Shown here: piece by piece, positions 2,606 through 12,521 of the stretch
Layout: each line of letters starts with the position of its first letter
Numbering within the stretch: the first letter of the stretch is position 1
Assembly (NCBI GenBank): GCA_902535275.1
Contig: CACASS010000006.1
Coordinates: forward strand, 1-32,797
Direction: 5' to 3'
From: an uncultured Pelagibacteraceae bacterium
Lineage (GTDB): Bacteria > Pseudomonadota > Alphaproteobacteria > Pelagibacterales > Pelagibacteraceae
Length of the DNA: 32,797 bases
Notes under the pieces: generated by a model
Databases searched by the model: none
What the model saw: only the letters and a program-made list of their open reading frames with translations
Told to the model about the DNA's origin: nothing
Made by a program: the position numbers and the translations under genes

Positions 2606-2691
2606 TGGTGCCCTCGGCCAGACTCGAACTGGCACTCCATAAATGGCAAGGATTTTAAGTCCTTTGTGTCTACCAATTTCACCACGAGGGC
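2606..2691 (-). tRNA. tRNA-Leu (anticodon UAA), CCA encoded
   Basis: Minus-strand GCCCTCGTGGTGAAATTGGTAGACACAAAGGACTTAAAATCCTTGCCATTTATGGAGTGCCAGTTCGAGTCTGGCCGAGGGCACCA: acceptor GCCCTCG/CGAGGGC, anticodon stem AAGGA/TCCTT with loop CTTAAAA, class II variable arm, T-loop GTTCGAGTC. Confidence 0.95.
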
Positions 2692-2766
2692 ATGAGTTAT
2701 TTTCATGAGTATTTATGCTAATATTTATAATTGAACAAGAGTAATAAGTAAAATTTTTTTAAATAG

Positions 2767-3684
2767 TTAATTCCACTTAAATATTTCAAGGTTTTTTTTC
2801 AATAAAGATTTTTTATTGTAAATCTCAAGAGACACACCTTTTATTTTTAAAAACTTTTTCCATTTTCCTATTGTTTGGATGATACCAAAATTGACAGTAT
2901 TATGCTTGTCTTTATGTGAAATACCTTTTGCTCCCATTTTAGAAAAGATAATTTTTTTTTTAAATCTGTCCCAAGTGTAAGTTGTATTAGGTGGACAAAA
3001 AAAATGCTGATTGTTATATAGATCTATGCCTACTAAAACAATTTTTTTGTAATTCATACAATATCCAAAGTTAATAGCATCTGTCAAAGTACCAGCATCA
3101 TGTACCAATCCATCTTTAATATTTTTACTTGGTAATGAGTTTCTTTTTCTAATTGTTGTGTATAAAAAAAAATTATTTCGTCTGCCAAAAAATTTATTAC
3201 CTAAAAGTTGATTTGGAAAATTGGAAACAATACCTTTTGGAAATAAAAATAAAGTTTTTTTGAAAAAATTATTATTTTTAACTTTTTTAGAAAAGAAATT
3301 ACAATAATCATTTGCATAGAATATTGCACCAGGACCCTCATGAGTGGCTCTATTTATATGATAATTAAAATTAAGTTTTTTTAAAAAAATTGTGTTATTA
3401 AACCCTATAGTATCATATTTATCTATTTTCTTCCACTCATTTTCTTTTAAATAGTTTAAAGAACCCCCTGACCCAATTACAAATAAAGTATTTGATTTTT
3501 TAAAATTTATTAAATCTTTATAACTAATCTTTTTATTTTTGTAATATCCTAGACATGTGTATTTTCTTTTTATGAATGAAATTAGAAGTATAAATAAATG
3601 ATAAGGAATTTCATTTAATTGATTATGCTTAAAAATTCCATAAAGTACCTTAATTTCATTATATAATAAATTTTTTATACCCAT
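2767..3684 (-). CDS. Putative glycosyltransferase, GT42 sialyltransferase / DUF115-like
   Basis: 305 aa; NTLFVIGSGGSLNYL near the N-terminus, DTIGFNNTIFL, GTLTDAINFGYCMNYKKIVLVGIDLYN. Pattern resembles Campylobacter CST-I/DUF115 proteins, and it lies next to a CMP-sugar synthetase. Confidence 0.5.
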   Translation of the reverse strand: MGIKNLLYNEIKVLYGIFKHNQLNEIPYHLFILLISFIKRKYTCLGYYKNKKISYKDLINFKKSNTLFVIGSGGSLNYLKENEWKKIDKYDTIGFNNTIFLKKLNFNYHINRATHEGPGAIFYANDYCNFFSKKVKNNNFFKKTLFLFPKGIVSNFPNQLLGNKFFGRRNNFFLYTTIRKRNSLPSKNIKDGLVHDAGTLTDAINFGYCMNYKKIVLVGIDLYNNQHFFCPPNTTYTWDRFKKKIIFSKMGAKGISHKDKHNTVNFGIIQTIGKWKKFLKIKGVSLEIYNKKSLLKKNLEIFKWN

Positions 3685-3708
3685 ATATCTTTACTTAAAC
3701 AAATCGGC

Positions 3709-4404
3709 TTATTTTTTTTTTAGTAAAATTTTGCAAATTTCAAAATCGAGATCATCATGAATATCATGTGTTTTTGAAACCTCAAAAGGTAAAACTTTTT
3801 TTCCCATAAAATTCCATGGAGATAAACCATCATTTTTATAGATTGACTCAGTTTTGATTACCCAAAAATTGTGACATAAGAAAAAAGATTTTTGCAGATC
3901 TTGTCTATTTGAAGATAATTTATTTTTAGATTTAAAGTAAGGAACTAAATATTTTTTATAAATTTGTTTTGCTCTGAATGGGTGTTTATCATTATCTTGG
4001 TTTACCGGAACTACAGCAGATGCGTTACTTTGTATTAAAATTTTTATACATTTTTTGATCCATTCTGCTCTAATTATTGGTGCATTAGCCAATAAAACAA
4101 CAACTATATCAGGATTTATACCTTTTTTTTTTAAATATTTAAGAGAGTGCAAAATTACATCTACATGAAGACTATTTGGTTTAGACAAATTTTTGGGTCT
4201 TTTAATTTTCTTATATCCATAATTTGAGGCTAAGCTCAATATTTTATTATCATCACTTGAAGTATAAAAATAATTTATATTTTTAACCTTATTTGCTTCA
4301 TTGCAAGGATATGAAAGTACAGGTGAACCAAATATTTTTTTTATATTTTTATCTTTATATTTACTACCGCCTCTTCCAGTTAATAGAGCTAGTATTTTTG
4401 TCAT
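3709..4404 (-). CDS. CMP-N-acetylneuraminate / nonulosonate cytidylyltransferase family protein (NeuA/PseF/LegF-like)
   Basis: 231 aa; LLTGRGGSKYKDKNIKKIFGSPVLSY (ARGGSKGxxxKN-type nucleotide-binding motif), YTSSDDNKI, RPKNLSKPNSLHVDVILHSL, VVVLLANAPI, HDIHDDLDFEIC. Confidence 0.75.
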   Translation of the reverse strand: MTKILALLTGRGGSKYKDKNIKKIFGSPVLSYPCNEANKVKNINYFYTSSDDNKILSLASNYGYKKIKRPKNLSKPNSLHVDVILHSLKYLKKKGINPDIVVVLLANAPIIRAEWIKKCIKILIQSNASAVVPVNQDNDKHPFRAKQIYKKYLVPYFKSKNKLSSNRQDLQKSFFLCHNFWVIKTESIYKNDGLSPWNFMGKKVLPFEVSKTHDIHDDLDFEICKILLKKK

Positions 4405-4508
4405 AAAATTAAAAAATAAACAAATATGTTAAATTTTTTATATATTACAATTTATATATTTTATAGTAATTTTTTTAAACTTTAATATGGTGTTTATGGT
4501 CAACAATA

Positions 4509-4760
4509 ATGAAAAAAATACAATTTATTAATTTTAATAAAATTTTAATATTTATTATAATTTTATTATCTATATTTTATTTTTTAAAGGAAAATAATTC
4601 TATGATAATGCTGAAAGCAAAGTATGAAATAAATAATATTTTAAAGATACACACTCCTTTGGAACTAACTGAGATAGAAATAGAAAAATTCATTAATAAA
4701 TTGAATTACAAAAATAGTTATAAAATACAAAAAAATAAAGAATATTGGATTAATAATTAA
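4509..4760 (+). CDS. Small hypothetical protein with one N-terminal TM helix; first gene of the GMC oxidoreductase cluster
   Basis: 83 aa, hydrophobic ILIFIIILLSIFYFL then polar helix-rich tail (LTEIEIEKFINKL). Stop 2 nt before the ATG of the next ORF. Confidence 0.55.
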   Translation: MKKIQFINFNKILIFIIILLSIFYFLKENNSMIMLKAKYEINNILKIHTPLELTEIEIEKFINKLNYKNSYKIQKNKEYWINN

Positions 4761-4762
4761 TT

Positions 4763-4918
4763 ATGATTAGAAGAAATTTCATTAAAGCACTTTTATATAT
4801 AGGATTATTTCCTCATATTATTTTTTTTAAAGATAAAAAAGACTATACAAATAAAAAAAGTAAGTTTGTTAAACTGAATAATTGGTTGGTTAAACAAAAT
4901 GATTTAAATGATTTATGA
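4763..4918 (+). CDS. 51-aa Tat-signal-like micro-protein (putative small/escort subunit of the GMC oxidoreductase)
   Basis: Not in the ORF track. Translates as MIRRNFIKALLYIGLFPHIIFFKDKKDYTNKKSKFVKLNNWLVKQNDLNDL*. RRNFIK followed by a hydrophobic stretch; 11-nt overlap with the downstream ATG at 4908. Confidence 0.55.
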   Translation: MIRRNFIKALLYIGLFPHIIFFKDKKDYTNKKSKFVKLNNWLVKQNDLNDL

Positions 4919-6314
4919 TTTTATAGTAATCGGTGCTGGTGCGGCTGGATTAACATTTATAGATAAAATAATTAAATCAAACAACGAAATTAAGATAGCT
5001 TTAGTTGAAGCGGGAAATTTAAAAAATGATTCTTTAAAAGATTATAAAGATATTTCATTTATAAAAAATAAAATTAATCCAGTAGATGAAAAAAGAGCCT
5101 TTTTATTTGGAGGTACAACAAATCTATGGGGTGGATTTTGCAGACCTCTAGATTTTGAAGATTTCATATCTAGAAGTGATATAAATAAAAATGAATGGCC
5201 ATTTGATATAAATGAACTAAATAAATATCTGGATGAAGCAAAAAAAGTATTAGAACTCAAGGAAAATTTTAAAATTAAAAATAAGCCCAAAGAAAGTAAA
5301 ACATTAACTGATTTCAATTTGGAGGAAATAGATTTTGATTATAGCAATAAACAAATTTTCTTCAAAAAATACAAGAGCCTAAATAATAAGATTGATATTT
5401 ATTTAAATAACATTGCCTACAAATTTGTAATTGATGAACAAAATAAAAGTGTCAAATCTTTGGATATTATCGAGGCTAAAACAAAATCTAAAAAAAGAAT
5501 TTATTCTAAAAACTTTATCTTATCCTTAGGTGGTTTGGAAACTACAAGATTTTTATTAAATAATAATAAATTTTATAAACAAAATTATTTTAATAACTCT
5601 AAAACATTAGGTAAGGGGTTTAATGATCACCCTCATTTTTATGTTGGTAATTATGTGAGCTTTAAGGATTTTCATAAAACAAATAAGATTAAATCTGTTA
5701 GGTATTTTAAAAATACACATAAATTTCAATTAGAAAACAAAATATTGAACTCATCAATTAGATTAACCTCAATTAAAAATCCTGTTGATACTAATTATGA
5801 TTTAATAGAAGAGTTTAAAATTTTATTCCCAAATATCACAAAAAAAATATTATATACAGGCAGAATCATGGTGGTGAGTGAACAACGATCAATTTTAGAA
5901 AATATGATGGAGCTAGATAATACAAAAAAGGATAATTTTGGTATCCCTAAAATAAATTTTAAATATGAACTGACAAAGTTTGATTTAGATAATATAAGAA
6001 AAACATCTATTAATATTTCCAAATGGTTGGCTAGCAGTGAGCACGGAAGAGCAAAATTATTGAATTGGATAATGGATGAAAATTTAATGCCTAATTCAAA
6101 CGATTACATGTGGTATGGACATCATATGAGTACAACTAGGATGGGTTTAAATGCAAATTCTAGTGTTGTAGATCATAATCTAAAAATACATTCTTTAAAT
6201 AATGCATATATTGTCAGTTCTTCGATATTTCCCTCTGGTGGTGCTTCAAATCCAACCTTTACAATAGTTCAATTAGCACTAAGACTGGCTGAGCATTTAA
6301 AAACAATTAGTTAA
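4908..6314 (+). CDS. GMC-family FAD-dependent oxidoreductase (gluconate/sugar dehydrogenase large-subunit-like)
   Basis: 468 aa; N-terminal FAD motif DFIVIGAGAAGLTFIDKI, FLFGGTTNLWGGFCRPL, LSLGGLETTRFLL, C-terminal MWYGHHMSTTRMG and NAYIVSSSIFPSGGASNPTFTIVQLALRLAEHL. No signal peptide of its own. Confidence 0.85.
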   Translation: MIYDFIVIGAGAAGLTFIDKIIKSNNEIKIALVEAGNLKNDSLKDYKDISFIKNKINPVDEKRAFLFGGTTNLWGGFCRPLDFEDFISRSDINKNEWPFDINELNKYLDEAKKVLELKENFKIKNKPKESKTLTDFNLEEIDFDYSNKQIFFKKYKSLNNKIDIYLNNIAYKFVIDEQNKSVKSLDIIEAKTKSKKRIYSKNFILSLGGLETTRFLLNNNKFYKQNYFNNSKTLGKGFNDHPHFYVGNYVSFKDFHKTNKIKSVRYFKNTHKFQLENKILNSSIRLTSIKNPVDTNYDLIEEFKILFPNITKKILYTGRIMVVSEQRSILENMMELDNTKKDNFGIPKINFKYELTKFDLDNIRKTSINISKWLASSEHGRAKLLNWIMDENLMPNSNDYMWYGHHMSTTRMGLNANSSVVDHNLKIHSLNNAYIVSSSIFPSGGASNPTFTIVQLALRLAEHLKTIS

Positions 6315-8214
6315 TCTTTTCAAAACGTATTAATTTGAAATTAGAACCTTTGTCGTTATAAAAAAGTTCGAAATTGTAGTTTTTTTTTTCATAGTCACTT
6401 AACCAAAATCTTCTCTCTAAAAATTTATTTAAATTTGTTCCCTTGGAAACATTAATATCTGCTATATAATTTAATGATGTCATAAATCTATAACCTCTCT
6501 TATAAGCTAAATCTAATAATTGACCCATTTTTTTTTGTTTGTTGGCTTCAGTGTCAAGAGCAAACCCTAGGCCTGACATCACATTAAAGTCAAGATATGA
6601 TGCTATTATTCCATCGTCATAAGAAATAATTTTTATTTTACTATCCAATGTCTTTTCTAGTTCTAATAAATCATTATTGATTTTAATACTACTATTAATA
6701 AATGGTTTATTCTTTAAGTCGTGATTTAAGAATTGTTTAGAATTGATATAAGAGTTACAGATTACAAATAAAAATAATATCAAAAAAATTTTTTTGTATA
6801 AAAAAGTAATTTTTCCATTTTGCAAATTAAAAGCTAAATAGCTGATAATAATTAGAGATATAAACATATAAAATAGAATAGAAAAAAATCTTATTTTACT
6901 TAAACCAAGAGCAAATATTTCTTTTTCTGTATTGTAATTTTTAAATGAATTAAAAACAATTAATACTACCAATAAAATTAATAAAAAAATTATAGATTTA
7001 ACAACTAATTTAAAATTTTCATTTTTAATGATGTTAAATTTTAGCTTTTTGAAATTAACATTTTTAATTAATTCATTAAGGTAAAATAAGATAATAAAAT
7101 TGAAAATTACTATATTTATTGGAAAATACCAATAACCCTGATGAAAAATCCATACAAAAACAAAGTTGTATAAAGATTTAAGTAAGACGTAAAAGGATAA
7201 ATAAAATAGTAACTTTGGAAATAATCTGTTGTTCAAATTATTTTTATTCTGCGAGTAAAAAATTATATGAAAAATAGATAATAACATTGGTGCAACTATA
7301 AATATTGCACGACCACTTGTTTTTTGCCATATAGACCAATTATTACTTGAAAAGATTTCACCTGCAGGAATTATAAGATTTAAAAAACTCATCATATTAT
7401 AGTATAGAGATGTACCAAATTTAGAAGATCCACTGCTTGGAAGTAAAGTTCCAGCATAAGCATAATTTAACAAACAATAACAAGCTATAAGAACAGAGGG
7501 TAAAACTATTAAAATAAATGTAAGCTTTTTCTGATATTTATTATTTGTTTCAAAAAAATAATATGCAAATATTACTATAATAAGAAAGATGTCATCTAAT
7601 CTTGAAAATATTATTAAGGTAACAATTACAGATAATAAAATGTATTTAAAAATATAGCTTTTATTTATATTCAAAAAATTTCTATTTAAAATAAAATACA
7701 TTAGGATTGAAAAGAAAAATATTGAGAATGAACTTTCCATACCATTGTTAAAATACCAAATGTTTCCTTGTTGAGATAAATCAGAAAATAAAATATGAAA
7801 AAAACCAGGAACTATAGATATAACAGTCAATACTTTCGAGTATCCTAAATTAATCAGTGTGTAAGATATTAAAACTGAAGATATTAAAAGTAAAAATAAA
7901 GAATTAAAGTAAATAAAGATTAATTGATTCTCAATATCATTTTGTAAAAATAAATTAGTTATAATTTTTAAGTAAATTTGAAAAAATGGGTGAAATCCAT
8001 TAGTTGGATACTCACCATCAAAACTGAAAAGAGGAGACCAACCACTATTATTAGCTATAGCAATATAATAAAAGGCATCTGATGCAAAATATTTTAATAT
8101 TGCTTCTGAATTAAAAGCAATCCAACTTAATATAAAAGGATAACAAACAAAAAAAGCACTTATTCCAATAAAAAAATAATTTTCAAAAATTTTTTTTGAT
8201 TTAATATCTATCAT
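6307..8214 (-). CDS. Polytopic GT-C/GT39-like membrane glycosyltransferase
   Basis: 635 aa with many TM helices; N-terminal loop ASDAFYYIAIANNSGWSPLFSFDGEYPTNGFHPFFQIYL typical of bacterial GT-C proteins. 1-nt (TAATG) overlap with the SDR gene upstream. Confidence 0.6.
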   Translation of the reverse strand: MIDIKSKKIFENYFFIGISAFFVCYPFILSWIAFNSEAILKYFASDAFYYIAIANNSGWSPLFSFDGEYPTNGFHPFFQIYLKIITNLFLQNDIENQLIFIYFNSLFLLLISSVLISYTLINLGYSKVLTVISIVPGFFHILFSDLSQQGNIWYFNNGMESSFSIFFFSILMYFILNRNFLNINKSYIFKYILLSVIVTLIIFSRLDDIFLIIVIFAYYFFETNNKYQKKLTFILIVLPSVLIACYCLLNYAYAGTLLPSSGSSKFGTSLYYNMMSFLNLIIPAGEIFSSNNWSIWQKTSGRAIFIVAPMLLSIFHIIFYSQNKNNLNNRLFPKLLFYLSFYVLLKSLYNFVFVWIFHQGYWYFPINIVIFNFIILFYLNELIKNVNFKKLKFNIIKNENFKLVVKSIIFLLILLVVLIVFNSFKNYNTEKEIFALGLSKIRFFSILFYMFISLIIISYLAFNLQNGKITFLYKKIFLILFLFVICNSYINSKQFLNHDLKNKPFINSSIKINNDLLELEKTLDSKIKIISYDDGIIASYLDFNVMSGLGFALDTEANKQKKMGQLLDLAYKRGYRFMTSLNYIADINVSKGTNLNKFLERRFWLSDYEKKNYNFELFYNDKGSNFKLIRFEKIN

Positions 8215-8951
8215 TATAATTTATTTTGAATTTTATTAGGTAACAGCTTTACAATTGCCATTATATATCTCCAGTAAAATGGTGTGTAAATAATTTCTAC
8301 ATGACTGTCTATTTTTGACACAATATCCTTTGCAACTTTTTGTGGATCACTCCATAAAATATTTTTTTTAAATTTTTTAGTCATTGGAGTATTAACAAAA
8401 CCAGGTTTTATATCGATCAATTTTACTTTAGATTCTCTAATGTTTGATCTCAAACCAATAATAAAATTTGATACAATAGATTTACTTGATCCATAGATAA
8501 AATTAGATTTCTTAATTACATCACCTGATACAGATGTAATTGTTGCAATAGTTCCTTTATTGGTGCTTAAAAATATTTTTGAGAATAAATAGATTAATTT
8601 GCAAGTTATTAAACCATTTAGATTAATAGTATTGTGAATATTTTTTAATTTAATTTTTTTTATATCATTATCCAATAGTTCACCAAATGCGAAAAGTACT
8701 AGATCAATTTTACTTAAATTAACAAGGTTTTTTTCTAATTTTTTCCTAATATCTTTTTTTAACAGATTTAAATCTAGTGTCTTATATTTGACGATATTTG
8801 ATCCATTTTTTTTTAATTCTAATGACAAATTTTTGAGATTATTTTTATTTCTACTTATCAAGAATAAATTATTTTTTTTATAAGCCCATAATTTTGCACA
8901 TTCAGAAGCTATTTTAGAGTTAGCACCAATGATTAATATATTTTTCATCAA
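8214..8951 (-). CDS. SDR-family oxidoreductase, DprE2-like (decaprenylphosphoryl-2-keto-ribose reductase-like)
   Basis: 245 aa; NILIIGANSKIASECAKLW Rossmann motif, SVSGDVIKKSNFIYGSSKSIVSNFI (YxxxK), PGFVNTPMT. 4-nt overlap with the DprE1-like gene. Confidence 0.75.
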   Translation of the reverse strand: MMKNILIIGANSKIASECAKLWAYKKNNLFLISRNKNNLKNLSLELKKNGSNIVKYKTLDLNLLKKDIRKKLEKNLVNLSKIDLVLFAFGELLDNDIKKIKLKNIHNTINLNGLITCKLIYLFSKIFLSTNKGTIATITSVSGDVIKKSNFIYGSSKSIVSNFIIGLRSNIRESKVKLIDIKPGFVNTPMTKKFKKNILWSDPQKVAKDIVSKIDSHVEIIYTPFYWRYIMAIVKLLPNKIQNKL

Positions 8952-10246
8952 ATATTCAATCTTAAAGATTGATTGGATTCGTAGTAATTAAATAGTTCTT
9001 CTCTTTTTCTAATTTTGTTGAATTTTGTAATCATAGGATACATTTTTTTTATATTTTCTTTTGCAAGGAAAGAATCTTTTGCAAGATAAATACGACCACC
9101 ATTTTTAATAATAAATTTATCAATCTCAACAATCATCGACTTGAGATTATTAGAATACTTAAAATCCATCGCTAAGCTATACCCTTTTTTTGGAAAACTT
9201 AAATAATTGTTATTTTTTTTACCCATAAGCTTTAGTACAGCAAGATATGGTTTATTTTTATACTTATTAAGTACTTTATTGATTATCTGCAAGTTTTTAA
9301 TGAATTTTTTTTCAGGTAATAGGATTTGATATTGTGTAAAACCTTTTTTACCATAGAATCTATTCCAATTTTTAATTCTATCTAGTGGGTAAAAATATTT
9401 AAAAAGATCAACCTCGGTTTCACCTTTTTTTGAAAAGTTGAAATAAAAATAATTAAATAATTTAATAATTGTATCGTTTAGAAAAATAATTTTATTAAGC
9501 ACAGATAAATTTAATTGTTTTTTATATCTAAATTTTAATTCTGAAGACGTTCTCTTATGATTTCCTAAATATAATATAGAATTAATTTTATTATTTTTAT
9601 TTCCAATTAAATCTAACCATGCAACACTATATTCACTATTAAAGTTAAGCTTTATTTCTTTAATCAAACTACCAAGAGTATTAAATTTTTTAGTTTTAGA
9701 AACTATTAAATGGCTTGTTATTTTTTTTAATTTAAACTTTGCAGAAAGTATGAATCCAGTCAACCCCATGCCAGAACATGTTGAACGGAATAATTGTTTA
9801 TTTTTTTTATTTACATTAAAAATTTTGTTTTTTTTAATTAATTTAAATGAAATTAAATAATCAGAGAAAGAACCTTCTATATGGTGATTTTTTCCATGCA
9901 CATCAGCAGCTATTGCTCCACCAATTGTAGCGAAACTCGATCCTGGAGTTACATGAAAAAACCAACCACTTTTAACAATTGTTTCTAAAATTTGGTTGAA
10001 AGTCACACCACTCTCACATTCTATTGTTCCCTTCTTTTTGTCAAATTTAATAATCTTGTTTAATTTTTTTGAACTACAAACATACTTTCCAAGAGCACTG
10101 TCACCATAACTTAAGCCAGAACCTCTGGCGATAACTTTTTCAATATTTAATAAATTGATATCTTTAATTTTTTTTGGATAATATATTTTTGAAAAACTTC
10201 TTTGTAATCTAGACCATCCAAAGATATTTGTATAAATAGATTTCAT
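8948..10246 (-). CDS. FAD-binding oxidase, DprE1-like (decaprenylphosphoryl-ribose 2'-oxidase family)
   Basis: 432 aa; N-terminal GWSRLQRSFSKIYYP, RGSGLSYGDSAL, VTPGSSFATIGGAIAADVHGKNHHIEGSFSDYL (VAO/PCMH fold, GGAxAxDVHGKNHH), matching DprE1 features known from Mycobacterium and homologues. Confidence 0.85.
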   Translation of the reverse strand: MKSIYTNIFGWSRLQRSFSKIYYPKKIKDINLLNIEKVIARGSGLSYGDSALGKYVCSSKKLNKIIKFDKKKGTIECESGVTFNQILETIVKSGWFFHVTPGSSFATIGGAIAADVHGKNHHIEGSFSDYLISFKLIKKNKIFNVNKKNKQLFRSTCSGMGLTGFILSAKFKLKKITSHLIVSKTKKFNTLGSLIKEIKLNFNSEYSVAWLDLIGNKNNKINSILYLGNHKRTSSELKFRYKKQLNLSVLNKIIFLNDTIIKLFNYFYFNFSKKGETEVDLFKYFYPLDRIKNWNRFYGKKGFTQYQILLPEKKFIKNLQIINKVLNKYKNKPYLAVLKLMGKKNNNYLSFPKKGYSLAMDFKYSNNLKSMIVEIDKFIIKNGGRIYLAKDSFLAKENIKKMYPMITKFNKIRKREELFNYYESNQSLRLNI

Positions 10247-11079
10247 TAGTAGCTCAAATAATAAAAGAAAATCATATTAGCCAATAGAAACCAACTTTTT
10301 TTACTTTTTATACAATAGTTAACTGGATCTATTTTTACTAACTTGTTAATTACATCTATATACAACTGAATTACCCAAATTAACAATATTAACACACACG
10401 GAAATAAGAAGTTTTTATTATTATAAATTAAAGATGGTTTATCTGAAAAAATATATAATATTAATACTGTAAAAGATACTAACAATGATACAAAAAAAAT
10501 ACTTTTAAATAATCTAAGATGTTGATTGTATCCTTCATTTGAAATTCTTTTTAAAATAGAAAGCCCTAAAAAAAATGAATAAGAAAACAAATATAGCGAA
10601 ATTGTAACATCAATATCAAATAAAATACCACCATAATAAATTCTTAAAATATAAAATGATGTCAAAACGAATACGTCTAATAAAAATAACTTTTTAAGAA
10701 AAATTGTATAACAAGATGTTAAAATAAAGTAAAAAATTAAAAAATAGATACCAAATAAATAGTTATTAAAATATAATAGAGCAAATGATGTAATCAAACA
10801 AATTACAATCAAAGCTATTACATCATAAATTTGTAATTTTTTACTTACTAATGGTCTTTTTTTCTTGTAAAAATTTTTTTTATCTTCTGCTTGATCATAT
10901 ATATCATTTAAACAATAAACTGATGAAGCAACAAATGAGAATGATAAAAATAAAATTATCGCTTTAAATGTAAATATAATTTCAATATTTCCTGAAAATA
11001 ACATTGGTAGAAATATTAAAAAATTTTTTATCCAGTGTGAAATTCTCAACTGCTCAAAAATTATATTTACTCTCATCAT
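10246..11079 (-). CDS. UbiA-family prenyltransferase, decaprenyl-phosphate phosphoribosyltransferase-like
   Basis: 277 aa polytopic; RISHWIKNFLIFLPMLFSG, YCLNDIYDQAEDKKNFYKKKRPLVSKKL (NDxxDxxxD-type motif). Stop/start overlap with the DprE1-like gene. Confidence 0.8.
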   Translation of the reverse strand: MMRVNIIFEQLRISHWIKNFLIFLPMLFSGNIEIIFTFKAIILFLSFSFVASSVYCLNDIYDQAEDKKNFYKKKRPLVSKKLQIYDVIALIVICLITSFALLYFNNYLFGIYFLIFYFILTSCYTIFLKKLFLLDVFVLTSFYILRIYYGGILFDIDVTISLYLFSYSFFLGLSILKRISNEGYNQHLRLFKSIFFVSLLVSFTVLILYIFSDKPSLIYNNKNFLFPCVLILLIWVIQLYIDVINKLVKIDPVNYCIKSKKSWFLLANMIFFYYLSY

Positions 11080-11088
11080 TTAAATAAA

Positions 11089-12102
11089 TTATCTTTTTTT
11101 TTCAGAATTGTATTGTGGATGTTTTGATTGGGGCCTATTTTTATGTTTTACAACAATTGAACCATCTACAACTTTAATATCATATCCCCAATTATCCCAG
11201 CCTTTTATTGATAATGGTTCACCAAGTTTGTCCTCGAGTGTTCGTGGGTAGACATAACACCCTTCACTTTCTCCATACTGAGATCTCGCTTCTTCCATTT
11301 TTTTTTTAACTTCCATGTGCAAATCTAATGGAACATTTAAATGTTGCCCAAGTAAGTAACTTAAATTCATATCTTTGCATGCTAAATCCATTGTAAATCC
11401 AGCTTCATATTTTTGATTAAAAATATGAGGAACAACAGTTTCCCACGCAAAGGAATTTCCAGCTGAAACTCTAATTGCATCAAAAAAACTCTCTAAATCT
11501 AATCCTGCTCTTTTAGCAATCATCATGCATTCAGATGCAGCAACCATATTAGTAAATGCAAGCATGTTTGAAACAACTTTTGCAATAGCTCCTGCCCCTA
11601 TATTTCCACAAAGAACAACAACCTCACCAATTGCATCTTGTAAAACTTCTTTCCAATTATTAAAAATTTCCTTATCTCCACCAGCTAAGCAAACCATATT
11701 ATTATTTTGTAAAGCATGAACACCTCCGGTTAGAGTAGCTTCCAACATTGAAACACCATATTTTTTTGCTTTTTCTGATAATTCTTGTGTTTGTTTAAAA
11801 TCAGTTGTGGATGTATCTATCCATGTCATTCTTGAAGAGGCATTTTGTAATAACCCATCCTCACCATTAACAACTTGTAAAACATGTTCTGGTTTAGGCA
11901 AACAAGTTAGAACTGAATTACATTTCTTTGCAAGATCTTTTATAGAATCAGCTTTAATAATTTCTTTATGAACATTATTTAGTTTGTTCTTATCAATATC
12001 AAAAGCTACAAGGTTATACTTCTTTGTTTTGAGTAAATTATTCAAGATTGGTTTACCAGCATTCCCTAAGCCAATCACCCCAATTGTTATGATATTTCTC
12101 AT
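11089..12102 (-). CDS. NAD(P)-dependent beta-hydroxyacid dehydrogenase (3-hydroxyisobutyrate dehydrogenase family)
   Basis: 337 aa; IGVIGLGNAGKPI Rossmann motif, DTSTTDF, ATLTGG, GNIGAGAIAKVVSNML, AGFTMDLACKDMNLS. Preceded by a strong SD (AAAGGAGAG) upstream of ATG 12102. Confidence 0.85.
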   Translation of the reverse strand: MRNIITIGVIGLGNAGKPILNNLLKTKKYNLVAFDIDKNKLNNVHKEIIKADSIKDLAKKCNSVLTCLPKPEHVLQVVNGEDGLLQNASSRMTWIDTSTTDFKQTQELSEKAKKYGVSMLEATLTGGVHALQNNNMVCLAGGDKEIFNNWKEVLQDAIGEVVVLCGNIGAGAIAKVVSNMLAFTNMVAASECMMIAKRAGLDLESFFDAIRVSAGNSFAWETVVPHIFNQKYEAGFTMDLACKDMNLSYLLGQHLNVPLDLHMEVKKKMEEARSQYGESEGCYVYPRTLEDKLGEPLSIKGWDNWGYDIKVVDGSIVVKHKNRPQSKHPQYNSEKKR

Positions 12103-12131
12103 AATCTCTCCTTTTGTAGATAAGTTAGTTA

Positions 12132-12521
12132 TTAAATTAACATAACTACTAAAAATAACATCTGAACAAAATTAATCATAACAGATATAAAATGTGAATA
12201 TTTGAATTTTTTATTCTGTTTATTATCTCTATATTTATTAATTAATGGCATTAATAAATAATTTGAGGCAGCAAATAAAAGAGTGATTGCTAGAATTAAG
12301 TAAAAATCTATTCCAAATTTACTTAAGAATACAAAAGTTATTAGAACAATTAAACTTAATCCTAAGTTAACATTATAGTAAAAAGGAAATATTCTTCTTA
12401 TAAATTTTCGAGCATTATCTTCATCTAAAGTAGTAAATACTACTGGAGCAATAACAAATGAAAAGAATAACATTATTCCTAAAATCATTGCTGTTAAATA
12501 AATAGTAATCTGCTCAATCAT
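12132..12521 (-). CDS. DUF4149-like small integral membrane protein
   Basis: 129 aa, 4 TM; ILGIMLFFSFVIAPVVFTTLDEDNARKFIRRIFPFYY is typical of DUF4149/TMEM205-like proteins. Confidence 0.65.
   Translation of the reverse strand: MIEQITIYLTAMILGIMLFFSFVIAPVVFTTLDEDNARKFIRRIFPFYYNVNLGLSLIVLITFVFLSKFGIDFYLILAITLLFAASNYLLMPLINKYRDNKQNKKFKYSHFISVMINFVQMLFLVVMLI

Follow-up and report, generated by a model that had tools for sequence, protein, structure and literature searches.

A probable lipid-linked arabinofuranose cassette at a variable surface-glycan site of a SAR11 bacterium

Introduction

Does a streamlined SAR11 bacterium make a lipid-linked arabinofuranose by the donor pathway that is chiefly known as a drug target in tuberculosis, and place that sugar on its surface? 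The question is raised by four adjoining genes on contig CACASS010000006.1 of an uncultured Pelagibacteraceae bacterium (assembly GCA_902535275.1); the entire contig, 32,797 bases, is the window analyzed here, and all positions without a locus label refer to it. The genome, 873 kb at 62% completeness, shares its genus with the SAR11 genome G232 and hence belongs to SAR11, in line with a first-pass annotation made from the sequence alone, which had called it SAR11-like. That annotation read the four genes as a donor operon of the decaprenylphosphoryl-arabinose (DPA) type. Our own analysis leads us to regard the cassette as, in good probability, a lipid-linked arabinofuranose system, which would make polyprenyl-phosphate-D-arabinofuranose and put it onto an envelope glycan or protein; the bacterium thus probably bears this rare sugar on its surface.

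Three-component pentofuranose systems were described by Kelly et al. 2024, who assigned DprE1/E2 homologues to arabinofuranose-containing glycans (PMC11127046), so that the pathway type is already known, and from many other bacteria. What is added here is the SAR11 host and, compared with what the sequence alone offers, better evidence for the arabinosyl step; no publication placing the pathway in SAR11 was found in the literature searched, which is not proof of its absence.

An overlapping four-gene operon

The open reading frames, of 277, 432, 245 and 635 residues, lie on the minus strand exactly where the first-pass annotation had put them. They encode, in order, a polyprenyl-phosphate phosphoribosyltransferase of the UbiA family, Rv3806c/ORF15-C type (277 residues, 10246..11079); a DprE1-type flavin adenine dinucleotide (FAD) oxidase (432 residues, 8948..10246); a DprE2-type short-chain reductase (8214..8951; 245 residues from a TTG or 244 from the ATG at 8948); and an AftB-related polytopic GT-C protein, likely an arabinofuranosyltransferase (635 residues, 6307..8214). 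Stop and start codons meet as TAATG, TGATG and TAATG, i.e., with 1-nucleotide overlaps, the second on the premise that the ATG at 8948, and not the TTG at 8951, is the DprE2 start. Positions, strand, order and junctions all agree with the overlapping operon that had been claimed. The guanine-plus-cytosine (GC) fraction of the operon is 0.20-0.24, as against 0.29-0.32 for PurB, PurL, LeuA and CysS of the same genome. The HIBADH gene (11089-12102), 9 nucleotides upstream of UbiA, was left outside the cassette because of its GC fraction of 0.325 and because it does not adjoin UbiA in the related locus L018; it could still be co-transcribed. A promoter scan of the AT-rich cassette DNA was uninformative.

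The donor enzymes

In profile searches the UbiA protein matched PRK08238 (5.8e-50, 170 bits) and the decaprenyl-phosphate phosphoribosyltransferase model PRK12324 (1.7e-25, 90 bits), as against 28 bits for ubiA_proteo and 46 bits for heme o synthase, and a PDB search returned Rv3806c structures only (8j8j, 2.4e-11). Along with this family-level match, the protein carries the NDxxDxxxD motif of the UbiA-fold phosphoribosyltransferases: N247, D248, D251 and D255, which matter for the activity of Citrobacter youngae ORF15 (PMC11127046), correspond to its N58, D59, D62 and D66. N58, D62 and D66, together with R146, K177 and R178, are invariant across 13 relatives. The PRK08238 match spans positions 192-476 of the model, so that the model's N-terminal part, a HAD domain in the fetched relatives (the HAD phosphatase of PRK08238 members), has no counterpart in the window protein.

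The DprE1 protein scored 313 bits (4.5e-93) against NF053785 as opposed to 46 bits against sugar-lactone oxidases, and matched PDB entry 4aut (2.1e-50). Counting along the PDB alignment, H132, K134, W230, Q336, K367 and K418 of Mycobacterium tuberculosis DprE1 are found as H117, K119, W210, Q307, K339 and K390, with Q334 (M. tuberculosis numbering) kept as well; catalytic and FAD-site residues, whose absence had been named beforehand as grounds for dropping the assignment, are thus present, along with residues of the substrate site. Cys387, the residue hit by covalent benzothiazinones, is Ala359 in the window protein. The DprE2 protein matched both PRK07102 (1.4e-58) and the DprE2 model NF053786 (7.7e-34), the former outscoring the latter; in the PDB, M. 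tuberculosis DprE2 ranks first (21gq_C, 2.1e-18), with the runner-up at 3e-9. The donor-enzyme scores fall below the curated NCBIfam equivalog cut-offs (500 for DprE1, against the 313 bits obtained), which marks the window enzymes as divergent members of their families.

Judged by these profiles and residues, UbiA, DprE1 and DprE2 belong to the DPA families and not to quinone or gulonolactone enzymes. The opposite outcome, with the UbiA and FAD proteins falling in those clades, failed to appear, the DPA-family scores being far higher; quinone and lactone-oxidase identities were rejected on that ground.

A GT-C transferase related to AftB

The fourth protein, which the first-pass annotation had called a polytopic GT-C, was the one whose family it could not place. 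Judged by hydropathy, the protein has about 12-13 membrane segments, the loop after the first carrying SDAFYY. Taken alone, the protein matched no Pfam family (DUF3377 fell below cut-off) and had no usable PDB match, and single-sequence searches found no homologue in 297 SAR11 genomes, besides the window's own, in 289 class-level genomes, in plasmids or in viral contigs. A single-sequence AlphaFold model reached a pLDDT (predicted local distance difference test) of 42 and was not used. Profile comparison with hhalign against 150 large membrane proteins of the fetched loci returned a single match, at 94% (L125; the next was at 5%). Its gene comes immediately behind DprE2 in an operon, UbiA-GtrA-DprE1-DprE2, that belongs to an uncultured Methylococcaceae methanotroph. 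The cyanobacterium Kovacikia minuta (L190) also has a homologue, oriented divergently to its UbiA-DprE1-DprE2 genes, and seven further ones came from 249 Pseudomonadota genomes; of these seven, two (L199, L204) lie beside complete UbiA-DprE1-DprE2 sets.

With a profile of 11 GT-C proteins, the sole significant PDB entry was the mycobacterial arabinosyltransferase AftB (9dlf, 7.1e-8), a homology of low identity that is detectable via the profile only. D46 and R205 of the window protein align with D62 and R221 of AftB; D62 is the catalytic residue, and loss of either D62 or R221 abolishes activity (PMC12041299). The GT-C is, on profile evidence, a transferase related to AftB that recurs alongside the DPA set, and it is encoded together with the synthase as in a three-component pentofuranose system. 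As a companion of DPA operons in several phyla, this family could be a useful marker of arabinosylated envelopes.

Relation to known systems

The genome collection holds at least 590 DprE1 relatives; among the best 80 loci from other genomes, UbiA lies within the fetched flank in 67, DprE2 in 75, GtrA in 27 and a HAD domain scoring above 25 bits in 20. The order UbiA-DprE1-DprE2 recurs in other phyla. A search for DprE1 in phages found none. Alphaproteobacterial plasmids carry UbiA(HAD)-GtrA-DprE1-DprE2, in one case with an inserted acyltransferase; the plasmid operons of Cereibacter, Ruegeria, Salipiger and Tateyamaria lie in or near polysaccharide loci and have the same core genes and order, at a DprE1 identity of about 31-33%, but the SAR11 cassette has neither their HAD fusion nor their GtrA.

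With the systems of the C. youngae O1/O2 type (PMC11127046) the cassette shares a UbiA-family PPPRS and a GT-C using polyprenyl-phosphate-pentofuranose, and with these and their relatives the DprE1/E2 homologues for arabinofuranose-containing glycans. It differs in that its UbiA is not fused to a HAD phosphatase, neither a MATE nor a GtrA flippase gene adjoins the set (MATE families were not searched), a GMC oxidoreductase does adjoin it, and its GT-C is placed through AftB and not through GT136. The mycobacterial DPA pathway (Rv3806c, Rv3807c, DprE1, DprE2, AftB) has a homologous prenyl-phosphate phosphoribosyltransferase, DprE1 and DprE2, and an AftB whose D62 and R221 are kept in the SAR11 relative. 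In contrast to mycobacteria, all four genes stand in a single SAR11 operon, no Rv3807c-type PAP2 phosphatase was found in the 62%-complete genome, DprE1 has Ala for Cys387, and the acceptor cannot be arabinogalactan or lipoarabinomannan.

Proposed pathway and its rivals

From the gene identities, active-site residues, conserved order, GT-C/AftB homology and variable-island setting, all directly observed, we infer the reactions, the sugar with its stereochemistry, the acceptor and the sources of phosphatase and flippase. A phosphatase encoded outside the cassette would remove the 5-phosphate from the lipid-linked sugar; DprE1, with FAD, would oxidize C2; DprE2, with NAD(P)H, would reduce the keto intermediate with inversion to give polyprenyl-phosphate-D-arabinofuranose; a flippase would export this; and there, on the outer face of the inner membrane, the AftB-related GT-C would attach the arabinofuranose to a glycan or protein of the envelope. 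Families, residues and the AftB link thus support the lipid-linked D-arabinofuranose-like donor first suggested for the locus, with product and acceptor predicted.

Several observations count against this pathway. No PAP2 or HAD-PRP phosphatase match was found in the window genome, so that the first-pass remark that the phospho-sugar phosphatase is not in the window stands, and no flippase candidate emerged, GtrA being absent from the matches in that genome while the MATE and SMR families were not searched. At 62% completeness, the absence of phosphatase and GtrA from this genome alone means little; HAD-PRP was, in addition, not found in eight further genomes of this genus, G132 (92% complete) among them, though the same search did pick up UbiA fusions of it in two genomes from a different SAR11 family. 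These cells would accordingly have to rely on an unrelated, housekeeping or yet-unrecognized 5-phosphatase. At the residue level, R58, Y314 and N385 of M. tuberculosis DprE1 are replaced by L45, F285 and S357, and R372 of AftB is not kept, a Tyr standing there by our reading of the alignment, for which reason we term the GT-C AftB-related and not an AftB. Moreover, five GT-C homologues (L200-L203, L205) have no DprE1 in the fetched flank, so that the GT-C fold alone does not fix the donor. Finally, the sugar that results may be altered by a GMC oxidoreductase encoded next to the operon.

This last point leads to the rival that most deserves attention, namely that the GMC flavoenzyme oxidizes the lipid-linked sugar further or acts together with a reductase to invert one more carbon, yielding another pentofuranose. 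The enzyme, a possible accessory of 468 residues (4908..6314, plus strand; GMC_oxred_C, 4.2e-18), is convergent with the GT-C gene, their 3' ends overlapping by 8 nucleotides, and its nearest solved relatives are sugar dehydrogenases (glucose dehydrogenase 8hdd, 1.1e-12). Six genomes of the genus bear UbiA, and in each of the six GMC-type genes are no more than a few kb away from it; in three SAR11 loci (L066:8340-11450, L067:8068-10739, L068:9370-13057) UbiA abuts or overlaps with GMC and an extended short-chain dehydrogenase/reductase (SDR), and outside SAR11 UbiA, SDR and GMC form a set near a GT-C homologue (L203:1450-6613). Yet the window GMC is encoded on the other strand and belongs to another subfamily than the GMC of L066-L068, a convincing GMC was seen in 0 of the best 80 DprE1 loci from other genomes, and GMC genes occupy many SAR11 islands without UbiA, several beside a GT2 gene, so that the UbiA/GMC link could simply reflect a glycan hotspot in which both reside. 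We consider such editing unlikely, if worth keeping in view.

Less likely still, by a clear step, is a donor of lipid-linked ribose or another isomer, transferred by the GT-C while DprE1 and DprE2 are inactive or act on another substrate. Citrobacter GT136 is not restricted to a single pentofuranose and there are ribose-only systems (PMC11127046), and divergent DprE1-like pairs accompany GT2 genes and not UbiA; but the window pair keeps the tested catalytic residues and is translationally coupled to UbiA, and kinship of the GT-C with an arabinosyltransferase speaks against such a donor. A chance neighborhood of genes from unrelated pathways, such as quinone prenylation and lactone oxidation, is conceivable in that all three superfamilies are broad, but we hold it to be extremely improbable: the DPA families lead by a wide margin in profile rankings and PDB matches, and the gene order recurs across phyla.

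A variable island in SAR11

The cassette is rare in SAR11. Across the order, 14 of 297 genomes carry DprE1-like genes and 8 a UbiA of this type, and the GT-C is confined to the window's own genome. The co-occurrence check proposed with the first-pass annotation did find UbiA, DprE1 and DprE2 together in G132 (L018), but with a different GT-C.

The window cassette sits between nadK/tRNA-Leu(TAA), the tRNA (2606..2691, minus strand) marking the island edge, and the genes from DUF4149 to azlDC. Relatives with about 90% identical NadK (L172, L173, L175) have different genes in the same interval, the tRNA being conserved, and G132 has there GMC, DprE2, DprE1, UbiA and a GT87-type GT-C, with tRNA-Leu on the azlDC side. 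UbiA or GMC genes also lie near nadK in G024, G223, G287 and G202. The cassette site is hence a variable surface-glycan site, a setting that, like the GMC neighbor, the first-pass annotation did not mention; hypervariable regions HVR1-4 are described for strain HTCC1062 (PMC2217521). In SAR11 the pathway thus travels as a swappable surface-glycan cassette, which would fit selection by phages or grazers. The hotspot itself (window 2606-12521; L018, L067, L078, L080, L172, L173, L175) carries different cargo in every SAR11 genome examined.

Two island neighbors on the minus strand, both matching below cut-off, are a PseF-like CMP-sugar synthetase (3709..4404; TIGR03584, 2e-24) and an MptE-like protein, possibly a transferase (2767..3684; PF01973, 1.8e-4). 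Together (2767-4404) they suggest a nonulosonic-acid-type sugar on the same surface.

Variant redox operons

Relatives of the window GMC stand beside UbiA/DprE1 in L018, L020 and L065, and its subfamily occurs near UbiA in G000, G132 and G110. Another GMC subfamily (Pfam-tested for G024, by sequence similarity for G289 and G223) abuts UbiA along with an extended SDR in these three genomes. UbiA-GMC-SDR is possibly a non-homologous counterpart of UbiA-DprE1-DprE2. On plasmids, three GMC regions were opened and two annotated, with no glycan context.

Of a different make are operons of GT2, DprE1-like and DprE2-like genes without UbiA (L026:8946-11707 in G094, L027:8259-11019 in G142, L028:9094-11854 in G090); their DprE1-like genes belong to a divergent class, at 26-33% identity, that makes up 7 of the 14 in SAR11. 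The top named relative of the operon GT2 proteins (232-234 residues) is ArnC, after which come AglJ, dolichyl-phosphate (DolP)-hexose transferase and similar families. This suggests DprE-type editing of a nucleotide-sugar-derived lipid-linked sugar, possibly a hexose, outside the pentofuranose pathway. With some hesitation, we entertain the view that SAR11 islands hold a modular redox toolkit for polyprenyl-phosphate sugars, comprising UbiA-DprE1-DprE2, UbiA-GMC-SDR and, for hexoses, GT2-DprE1-like-DprE2-like modules, with the window joining the first to a GMC editor. If the GMC and GT2 variants do edit lipid-linked sugars, DprE-type chemistry would reach past pentofuranoses.

Two further families keep company with these genes. 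Proteins of about 240 residues with one N-terminal membrane segment and a YGFC..E.IGYLR motif (L065:8810-9523, L075:8017-8757, L078:11329-12048) are encoded after GMC genes and before a polytopic membrane protein. Radical SAM proteins lie beside DprE1 (L019:10507-11892) and, with a B12-binding domain, beside the UbiA-GMC-GT-C set of L203 (7238-8938); these could methylate or rearrange the sugar or the lipid.

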